Below, in pieces: positions 1-2,027 of a DNA stretch of 64,000 nucleotides. Every line of letters begins with the position of its first letter. The stretch's first letter is position 1. Origin of the DNA: Candidatus Poribacteria bacterium (GTDB taxonomy: Bacteria > Poribacteria > WGA-4E > WGA-3G); assembly GCA_022824265.1 (NCBI GenBank), contig JAJEAG010000014.1:1-64000 (forward strand). The letters are read 5' to 3'. A model generated the notes under the pieces. It was given only the letters and a program-made list of their open reading frames with translations, ran no database searches and had not been told where the DNA came from. A program made the translations under genes and the position numbers.

Positions 1-139
1 GCTGTCGGATAGACAGAGAGACTAAACGCCTGTGGAGTCTGAATAAGACCTCATTCGGAGGCACGAGAGACGGAAGCAGGAATCACACAGGAGAGTTGTG
101 TGCTAAAAGAAGCACACGGCTTTAGCCGTCGTGAGTATC
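1..139 (+). mobile_element. Right end of an IS200/IS605 (tnpB-type) element, rest off-window
   Basis: The first ~140 bases are not typical coding sequence. They look like the 3' end of a tnpB-carrying IS200/IS605 element: a run containing ggaagcaggaatc around 71-83, an imperfect stem (cacacaggag...gttgtgtg) and, near the end, a subterminal hairpin cacggc-ttta-gccgtcgtg at 115-133. That order of motifs is what I recall from right ends of this family. A reading frame is open from base 3 to a TAG at 123-125 (frame 3) and could be the tail of tnpB, which normally overlaps this RNA; it is too short to prove. The exact right boundary is uncertain by about 10 bases and is placed just after gtgagtatcac. 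The insertion appears to have cut off the start of the downstream gene. Confidence 0.62.
24..139 (+). ncRNA. Candidate omega-RNA (reRNA) scaffold of the TnpB element
   Basis: TnpB nucleases use an RNA copied from the element's right end; the scaffold ends at the element boundary and the adjoining host bases act as guide. The sequence here has the expected layout: alternating G-rich and pairing segments (gcctgtggagtc, aagacctcattcggagg, gaagcaggaatc) followed by the terminal cacggctttagccgtcgtg hairpin. If so, the guide would be the ~16-20 bases directly after about position 139, inside the Rpn-type gene. Assignment is by motif resemblance only; TnpB itself is not visible. Confidence 0.5.
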
Positions 140-939
140 ACACAGCGATATTCCATACAGAAGTACAAACAGACGATAGTAGAAAACCGATGTGGTCCTG
201 TCTTGCTGGGTATCACGGTTACTTAATCCAACAGCATGAAATTCCTGTCTATTGTAATGTTCTCTACCTACATCCCAACGCAGGTAGAAATGATGAAGGT
301 TTCTATGCATATAAAGGGATGGGCTACGAATATGTGCTTCGCTATAAGGTGATTAGGCTGATTGAGATAAATGGACAATCAATTTTGGAAAAGCAGATGC
401 CAGGATTACTGCCTTTTACACCTTTGATGAAACCGCCAGAAGGAATAGATGCTAATCGTTGGTTGGAGAAATGTATTGATGCAATAACGTTAGCAAGCAC
501 AGATCAAAATACAAAGGAAATATTATTCGCTGCACTCGGTGTTTTTGGCAGTTTAGTTTACGACTCACAAATGATTATACAACGTTTACCGGAGGGTATC
601 ATGCGGGAATCTCCTTTTATACAATACTGTCTTGAATTATATGCGGAAGAATATAAGCAAAAGGCTTATGTAGAAGGTATTGAACAAGGCAAAGCAGAAG
701 GTATTGAACAAGGTGAAAAGAATGGAACAATTCAAAGTATTATAGCACTACTTGAGATAAAGTTTAAACCTGATGCTGTGAAAGTATTGGAACCAACTTT
801 GCAGAGTATAGACGACATGCAACGTCTTAGAGAATTACTGATTGCAGCTCCACGCGTTGAAAGTCTTGAAAGGTTCATGCAGTTTTTGTCGAACGGAAAT
901 GCTATTGAATCAGAGAATGACGGAACACTACACTTATAG
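100..939 (+). pseudogene. Rpn/PD-(D/E)XK family nuclease-transposase, N-terminally truncated
   Basis: The 279-residue product has the core of Rpn-like (PDDEXK_2/YhgA-type) proteins: an FHTEVQTDDS segment carrying the E-x-Q part of the PD-(D/E)XK site near residue 21, a conserved middle ending in LLPFTPL, and a C-terminal stretch with two near-identical EGIEQGK/EGIEQGE repeats and a predicted helical tail. The family normally has some 50-80 more residues before the E-x-Q motif, including the first catalytic aspartate; here they are missing. The first ~13 codons (GTG start at 100, Shine-Dalgarno-like aggaga at 89-94) lie in IS200/IS605 right-end sequence, so the insertion seems to have removed the native start and supplied a new one. 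It is 8 bases upstream of pyrB and may be co-transcribed. Probably inactive as a nuclease. Confidence 0.7.
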
Positions 940-947
940 AGGAGACG

Positions 948-2027
948 ATGCGGCACCTCGTAACACTTGACGATTTATCGAATTTTGAAATTGAACAGAT
1001 TTTTCGATTGGCTGCAGGGATGCAGTCACAACACGACACATGGGCAGGTATCTGTAGAAGCAAATTGCTTGCGACCCTATTTTATGAACCAAGTACTCGC
1101 ACACGGCTCTCCTTTGAAAGTGCAATGGAACGATTGAATGGTGGAACACTCGGCTTTTCTGATCCAAGTTCTACATCTGTGACAAAAGGGGAAACCCTTG
1201 CCGACACGGCTCGGATGGTCACGAATTATGCTGATGTGATTGCTGTACGACATAGTTGGGCAGGTTCTGCACGGGTTATTGCAAGTCATGCAAACATCCC
1301 AGTCATCAATGGTGGGGACGGTAGCCATACGCATCCAACCCAGGCACTAACAGATCTCTATACAATTATCCGCCGAAAATCGCAAATAGAGGGACTTACA
1401 GTTGGAGTCTGTGGTGATCTGATGTATGGTCGTGCAGCACATTCGTTTGCCTTAGCAGTATCTCGTTTTGGTGGAAACCTTGTTCATATAGCCCCAAAAG
1501 GGTTACAAATGCCTCCTTGGATACTCAAACGATTAGCGCAAGTCCACGGTCAGATACCCGTTGAAGTAGAAAATGTAACAGAGGTGATTGAAACGCTTGA
1601 TGTCATTTATGTTAATCGTCTTCAAGAGGAACGGCTGCCTCCAAGTGTGGACGCTGAGACTGTTCGCGGAAGTTATCTGTTGAACGCAGCGGTGATGAAA
1701 AATGCCAAACCCGATGCGATGATCATGCATCCACTTCCTCGCGTGAATGAACTCGCGTATGAGTTAGATGAGGACCCACGTGCGGCATATTTTGAACAAT
1801 CTGCAAATGCTGTACCGATAAGGATGGCACTTATTGCAAGCTTATTAGGTTTGGAACAACTTATCTTGACACAACCTCCAATCCGAAACATTGAAGAGTC
1901 ATCACATCAATGTAAAAACCCAAACTGTGTGACCAATCACGAAACCTATCTGGTATCCGAACAAGAAACATTCAGAGGGAATGAAGACGTGAATGCGTGT
2001 GCATATTGTGGTCAATTGGTTGCATGA
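948..2027 (+). CDS. pyrB: Aspartate carbamoyltransferase with C-terminal PyrI-like zinc module
   Basis: Catalyses carbamoyl phosphate + aspartate to carbamoyl-aspartate, the committed step of pyrimidine synthesis in the cytoplasm. The carbamoyl-phosphate loop FYEPSTRTRLSFE is at residues 45-57 and the HPLPR active-site motif lies near 263. The catalytic chain usually ends near 310 residues; this one is 359. The extra tail holds Cys322-x4-Cys327 and Cys351-x2-Cys354, the spacing of the zinc domain of the regulatory chain PyrI, while the nucleotide-binding domain of PyrI is absent. The start has a good site (gaggaga, 940-946) 8 bases after the upstream stop. The activity is secure. The role of the tail, probably subunit contact rather than allostery, is inferred. 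Confidence 0.95.
   Translation: MRHLVTLDDLSNFEIEQIFRLAAGMQSQHDTWAGICRSKLLATLFYEPSTRTRLSFESAMERLNGGTLGFSDPSSTSVTKGETLADTARMVTNYADVIAVRHSWAGSARVIASHANIPVINGGDGSHTHPTQALTDLYTIIRRKSQIEGLTVGVCGDLMYGRAAHSFALAVSRFGGNLVHIAPKGLQMPPWILKRLAQVHGQIPVEVENVTEVIETLDVIYVNRLQEERLPPSVDAETVRGSYLLNAAVMKNAKPDAMIMHPLPRVNELAYELDEDPRAAYFEQSANAVPIRMALIASLLGLEQLILTQPPIRNIEESSHQCKNPNCVTNHETYLVSEQETFRGNEDVNACAYCGQLVA

Follow-up and report, generated by a model that had tools for sequence, protein, structure and literature searches.

A TnpB element that splits an rpn-like gene in a Candidatus Poribacteria genome, from a family that appears to replace start codons

Among described systems, ISDra2, an IS200/IS605 element of Deinococcus radiodurans, offers the closest comparison for the element considered here. 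Its TnpB is paired with a reRNA that derives from the right end of the element and overlaps the 3' end of tnpB, the guide being taken from the flanking DNA (PMC8612924). The element found at the start of our window (the whole 64,000-nucleotide stretch of DNA that was analysed) is alike in having a TnpB homologous to that of ISDra2 along its entire length, RuvC D/E/D residues included, and in inserting 3' of a short motif; a right-end RNA that overlaps the 3' end of tnpB and has a flank-derived guide is predicted for it. The motif is TTGAT in ISDra2 and (W)TGAA in the present element, which, unlike ISDra2, lacks tnpA, closes at its right end in an in-frame GTG and has copies that are enriched at start codons.

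IStrons, which combine a group I intron with an IS605-type transposon, provide a second parallel: there, too, expression of the gene entered by an IS605-type element is spared from harm (PMC4227781). An IStron is removed from the RNA by splicing, whereas the present element has no intron, takes away the native start and offers a GTG in its place. IS1341-type (tnpB-only) elements and their MITE derivatives resemble it in a third way, having tnpB without tnpA and copies with internal deletions; in the present family, two MITE-like copies (L013:4150-4441 on contig C73 and L014:2250-2548, at 12.7 kb on C85) have tnpB deleted at a shared GGGAT. To our knowledge, start-codon replacement is undescribed for IS1341-type elements, and a literature search, covering papers open without subscription, found no report of it for TnpB elements. 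We consider it very probable that the locus is to be explained by insertion, exchange between element copies, an ordinary guide and membership of a family enriched at start codons; the mechanism in the window would for the most part be standard TnpB biology, to which the exchange adds a single step.

The element right end at the window's edge

Base 1 of the window is base 1 of contig C10, of which the window forms the first 64 kb. The source genome (G000) is a draft metagenome-assembled genome (MAG) of 4.45 Mb in 100 contigs, 96.7% complete, and the relatives with which it was compared are Candidatus Poribacteria, which are sponge-associated. The features of the window's first bases are as follows.

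1..12, + strand: 3' end of tnpB, its last three codons (A V G) and TAG stop; the same bases close a complete 358-aa TnpB on C6 and C85
13..141, + strand: element right end, putative omega-RNA (reRNA) scaffold, from its repetition in other right ends and its folding against shuffles
89..93, + strand: AGGAG, a conserved Shine-Dalgarno-like run of purines, 37 nt 5' of the terminal GTG
99..116, + strand: hairpin 1, TGTGC(TAAAAGAA)GCACA, paired in 99% of cells across 27 distinct copies
117..128, + strand: hairpin 2, CGGC(TTTA)GCCG, immediately 5' of the terminal GTG, from covariation
131..141, + strand: GTG AGT ATC AC, with which the element ends, unchanged in 51 of 52 copies
142..157, + strand: would-be 16-nt guide from the rpn flank, placed next to the right end by analogy with the ISDra2 reRNA
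142..939, + strand: rpn-like gene, 3' portion, beginning right after the split (about codon 58), still open, 82% identical to the intact orthologue in G009
100..939, + strand: 279-codon ORF, 14 element codons (100-141) and then rpn
948..2027, + strand: pyrB, aspartate carbamoyltransferase with a fused PyrI-type C-terminal domain, from Pfam and its position 3' of intact rpn in seven relatives

Window bases 1-141 are found again, whole or in part and at 85-100% identity, at seven other sites in the genome, and the copies part ways after GTGAGTATCAC, which ends at window base 141. The junction at 141 is true sequence common to many copies, and not chance. Bases 1-12 read GCT GTC GGA TAG, with the remainder of tnpB past the contig end; in sibling copies the 141-base block sits directly after a complete 358-codon tnpB. 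A sequence-only reading of the window had expected a tnpB upstream, and it is in these siblings that it can be seen, as the contig ends here. The copies on C6 and C85 match Pfam PF01385, PF07282 and PF12323 (OrfB_IS605, Cas12f1-like_TNB), and the TnpB matches that of ISDra2 with an E value of 2.6e-46. Aligned to 8bf8 and 8h1j, they keep the RuvC D, E and D residues (in GIDVGI, GIETLK and DRDVNAA), and the zinc ribbon is present. These two copies thus identify an ISDra2-like TnpB of the IS200/IS605 type, of which the window has only the last codons.

Insertion at a fixed motif without target duplication was confirmed by empty sites at rpn, larA-ubiX and gfo, and TGAA precedes nearly all of the left ends examined. 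The element has no Y1 transposase TnpA and belongs to the tnpB-only group, mobilised in trans or in the past. A single weak PF01797 match was detected in its own genome (26.9 bits, at G000:C37:49704-49955, L106) and a strong one of the IS200 type in the sister genome G009 (128.9 bits); the elements in the window's genome may be stranded without a transposase. Searching plasmids with the right end returned only marginal mycobacterial matches, and plasmid TnpBs are less than 43% identical.

The right end is repeated at least eight times in its own genome and about 45 times in the relatives, mostly 3' of tnpB or of a tnpB relic. It folds better than shuffled sequences (z -3.2, and -5.1 for the last 60 nt), hairpin 2 has one pair that is altered on both sides (GC, AU, CG), and covariation of the whole structure lies above all 500 shuffles. 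The position 3' of tnpB and the covarying hairpin 2 match what would be expected of a structured right-end RNA. An Rfam search of the first 3 kb of the window matched no known RNA. The minimum-energy fold, in which AGGAG is partly sequestered, was rejected, its alternative helix being without covariation support. A comparable purine pentamer lies 34-39 nt from the GTG in 51 of the 52 copies, from which we infer that AGGAG may be a ribosome binding site. The invariant TCAC at 83-86 could pair with GTGA in a helix that would mask the start; such a helix never varies among the copies.

Copies at start codons

To describe the family, 52 right ends with 50 distinct flanks were gathered from about ten genomes (loci L010, L014, L015 and L177-L225; genomes G000, G004, G005, G006, G007, G009, G010, G011, G013, G016 and G017), and 51 of them close exactly in the same terminal sequence as the window copy. 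The frame GTG-AGT-ATC-AC|N is open for at least 150 codons into the flank in 27 of the 50 distinct copies, compared with 8.6% expected from WTGAA sites in the window (p about 2e-16). Chance coding at such sites is commonest in another phase (29.6%), which was observed in just 5 of the 50. The excess stays when the copies are set against a neutral pool of start-codon and intergenic sites (p about 1e-12), the count of start codons in this pool being generous and the 27 including a few false start landings, such as that at yqgF. The yqgF copy (C79a) was rejected as a true start landing: although its GTG phase is open, the gene's own ATG is some 50 bases downstream.

The resulting fusions read V-S-I-T and then continue with the protein, picked up near residue two or three. 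Alignment to the profile starts at residue 5 in UbiX, TsaD and PyrR, 10 in MnmG, 3 in GcvT, 7 in PanB and 9 in a sulfatase, and the fits for UbiX, TsaD, PyrR, GcvT, PanB and MnmG support landing at the start codon. A native ATGAA or TTGAA start is split at ubiX, panB and gfo, and probably at tsaD and mnmG likewise; the empty gfo site of G009 reads CCTATGAA|AACATATCG and the empty ubiX site TTGAA|GCGG. Among 18 sites with both flanks known, joining the flanks clearly restores a native NTG-AA start at 7 (ubiX, gfo, panB, L188, L189, L209 and L220), as against about 2% of TGAA sites. An insertion after NTG-AA stays in phase with the terminal GTG because 5 and 11 bases leave the same remainder on division by 3. 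The element therefore appears to replace start codons, and in the other copies its terminal GTG probably gives the gene that follows a new start in frame (V-S-I-T). This apparent habit, to which both the statistics and the anatomy of the copies point, is the part that would surprise a specialist. The panB start codon is occupied by the MITE-like copy at 12.7 kb on C85.

These observations suggest a model in which the element recognises (W)TGAA, very often as the start codon ATG-AA or TTG-AA. The original reading would end in the left end as a short, stop-terminated peptide, and the gene would re-initiate from the GTG at the right end. The AGGAG-hairpin-hairpin-GTG module inside the omega-RNA would serve this re-initiation, the hairpins, if folded, bringing the purine motif near the GTG. 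A single transcript would then be both the omega-RNA precursor, with the 5' coding sequence of the gene as its guide, and the host mRNA. We lean moderately towards such a start-codon lifestyle of the family, re-initiation included.

To a reading in which the excess reflects survival only, with no special targeting, we give about an even chance. Intragenic insertions would be purged, intergenic ones would decay, and copies at start codons would be held by the dependence of the gene, as imprecise loss of a copy that has removed the native start would kill the gene. Right ends without tnpB, or with a tnpB relic, persist before tsaD, pyrR and gcvT, which would fit dependence of the gene on them. 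Two of these insertions, at tsaD (L191/L210) and pyrR (L192/L208), are common to two species, G005 and G004, with private variants of the right end; tnpB is lost or a relic in these copies and the right end and GTG are retained. Against survival as the sole cause, intergenic TGAA outnumber start-codon TGAA about seven to one in the window, and yet copies in the start phase make up more than half; they include copies with a full-length tnpB (L188, L189 and L209). Even under survival alone, the replacement GTG must work.

If start-codon replacement is true, the element would be a start-codon-replacing transposon, doing at translation what IStrons do by splicing. It would invade housekeeping genes, tsaD and mnmG among them, without harm through insertions that are hard to lose, and the guide would come from conserved coding sequence beside a TAM that is itself the start codon, which would bear on how TnpB elements choose and retain their sites. 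Annotation would be affected as well, such genes beginning V-S-I-T in sequence brought by the element.

The split gene and the probable separation of its halves

The window copy is an exception in this family: it landed within a gene, the target was destroyed and there was no rescue, the terminal GTG being out of frame with rpn and its frame open for only about 30 codons. Intact rpn lies between pyrD and pyrB in seven relatives. Its N-terminus reads ..STLKVQLRNE(I/T)AIFHTEVQ.. in the closest of these, and the window begins at AIFHTEVQ and continues into pyrB. The empty site, inspected in the DNA of six relatives, is ..(A)ATGAA|A(C/T).., so that AATGAA-A(C/T)AGCGATATTC or close variants in the relatives stand against TATCAC-ACAGCGATATTC in the window. 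The missing half is found on C85, where pyrD is followed by the first 58 rpn codons (MPQHYDNAV...VQLRNE, ending AATGAA), the left end GGGAATTAAC and a full element. By alignment with these sites, the insertion is exact, 3' of TGAA, and splits rpn after about codon 58.

The sequence-only reading had held that the right end of a TnpB element truncates this gene, and the observation is real, confirmed by the 141-base repeat junction and by the orthologues in the seven relatives, whose intact N-terminus is not encoded by the window bases. The first 14 codons of the 279-codon frame (100-141) are, as it had proposed, derived from the element. Its interpretation was partly supported. The lost N-terminal part, which it took to include the first catalytic acid, does hold D54 (G009 numbering), a residue invariant in 11 relatives whose position is that expected for the first catalytic acid in a PD-(D/E)XK nuclease. 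H69, E71 and Q73, invariant in the same number of relatives, remain in the window half. This conserved Asp and H-x-E-x-Q motif, spaced as in PD-(D/E)XK, and weak TIGR01784 matches in paralogues recall the Rpn/TIGR01784 nucleases, but every match is far below the curated cut-off of 52.1 bits (15 bits for the window ORF and up to 22.2 bits for paralogues), no Pfam family scored above its own cut-off for rpn, and an AlphaFold2 model on seven rpn orthologues (pLDDT 48) was too poor for use. The label "Rpn-like nuclease" is accordingly a weak one. In another Rpn-like gene, in G010 (L214, C1:1.10 Mb), an element sits at the very start in the GTG phase; with the window copy, the same gene family has thus been struck both harmlessly and destructively.

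By the position of the guide relative to the right end in the ISDra2 reRNA model (PMC8612924), the guide would be window bases 142-157. In front of the occupied site stands TATCAC in place of the TAM, TGAA, and with no adjacent TAM this site is no target; only the empty rpn allele, in which TGAA precedes ACAGCGATATTC, would be one. The window RNA would be an ordinary omega-RNA matching this empty allele. Such matching is thought to be how TnpB elements retain themselves. The earlier suggestion of a TnpB specially programmed against its own insertion flank falls away, as this is normal for every TnpB element and the TAM is missing in situ.

The C85 element, which begins in rpn, is flanked on its right by a zinc alcohol dehydrogenase gene and not by rpn. 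To find the original partners, every orphan element end was matched by synteny in relatives. The C6 left and C41 right ends flank a larA-ubiX site that is empty in eight relatives; C6, which overlaps window bases 1-39, was on this ground rejected as the left partner of the window. The C55 left end pairs with the C79b right end and the C3 left end with the C79a right end, while the C64 left end and the C85 right end, with its dehydrogenase flank, are neighbours in G009 and G006. With all other ends paired, the C64 left end and that of the window are left as reciprocal partners, the link between C64 and C10 being predicted by elimination.

These pairings suggest that a tnpB-only ISDra2-like element entered rpn 3' of TGAA, between pyrD and pyrB, and that a second copy lay between a DUF1501-like gene and the zinc alcohol dehydrogenase gene. 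Homologous recombination between the two copies would have exchanged their flanks, yielding on C85 the rpn start to the left of a full element with the dehydrogenase gene on its right and, on C10, the reciprocal right half seen in the window, with C64 as its predicted left partner. Recombination between two element copies is the most likely cause of the separation. The window would then be a worked example of exact insertion, gene loss and an inter-copy exchange that parts guide from TAM, the TAM half and the guide half now being on different contigs. One observation counts against the exchange model: in G010, a more distant congener in one contig, both sites have the same orientation, which would predict excision and not simple inversion.

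Should C85 instead be chimeric, through a wrong join within the repeat, both rpn halves would still flank one element. The elements are multi-copy repeats of about 1.35 kb, the C3 end and the interior of the C85 element share 140 bases, and the assembly is a MAG judged from its contigs. The actual contig breaks, however, are exact 141-base overlaps (C10/C41, C55/C64 and C79a/C79b), which is what a k=141 assembly graph would give on breaking at repeats. Between the C85 element and each of the other contigs compared, fewer than 141 bases are shared, so the graph has no node among those contigs at which to switch. The other ends keep their ancestral pairing and the swap involves just the four ends of two sites, the pattern that a single exchange predicts. 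We regard a chimera as improbable and a real exchange as much more likely, a judgement that rests on one draft MAG.

That the 279-codon frame is a functional fusion with a start recruited from the element is very improbable: the frame is open, with a dN/dS of 0.21 against G009, and the family appears to supply start codons elsewhere, but its GTG, at 100, is part of hairpin 1 and differs from the one at 131 that other copies appear to use, the invariant D54 is in the lost part, and one frame in three is open by chance, an openness that low divergence preserves. The ORF is probably in frame with rpn by chance. Intact pairs have dN/dS values of 0.11-0.16, and residual constraint in the remaining rpn frame is as expected of a recent disruption.

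An inverted, truncated right end (L012:3513-3629, element bases 26-141) lies 1.2 kb from the full C85 element and flanks the same dehydrogenase gene. In the window, the pyrB product (948-2027) has its PyrI-type zinc-binding C-terminal domain on one polypeptide.
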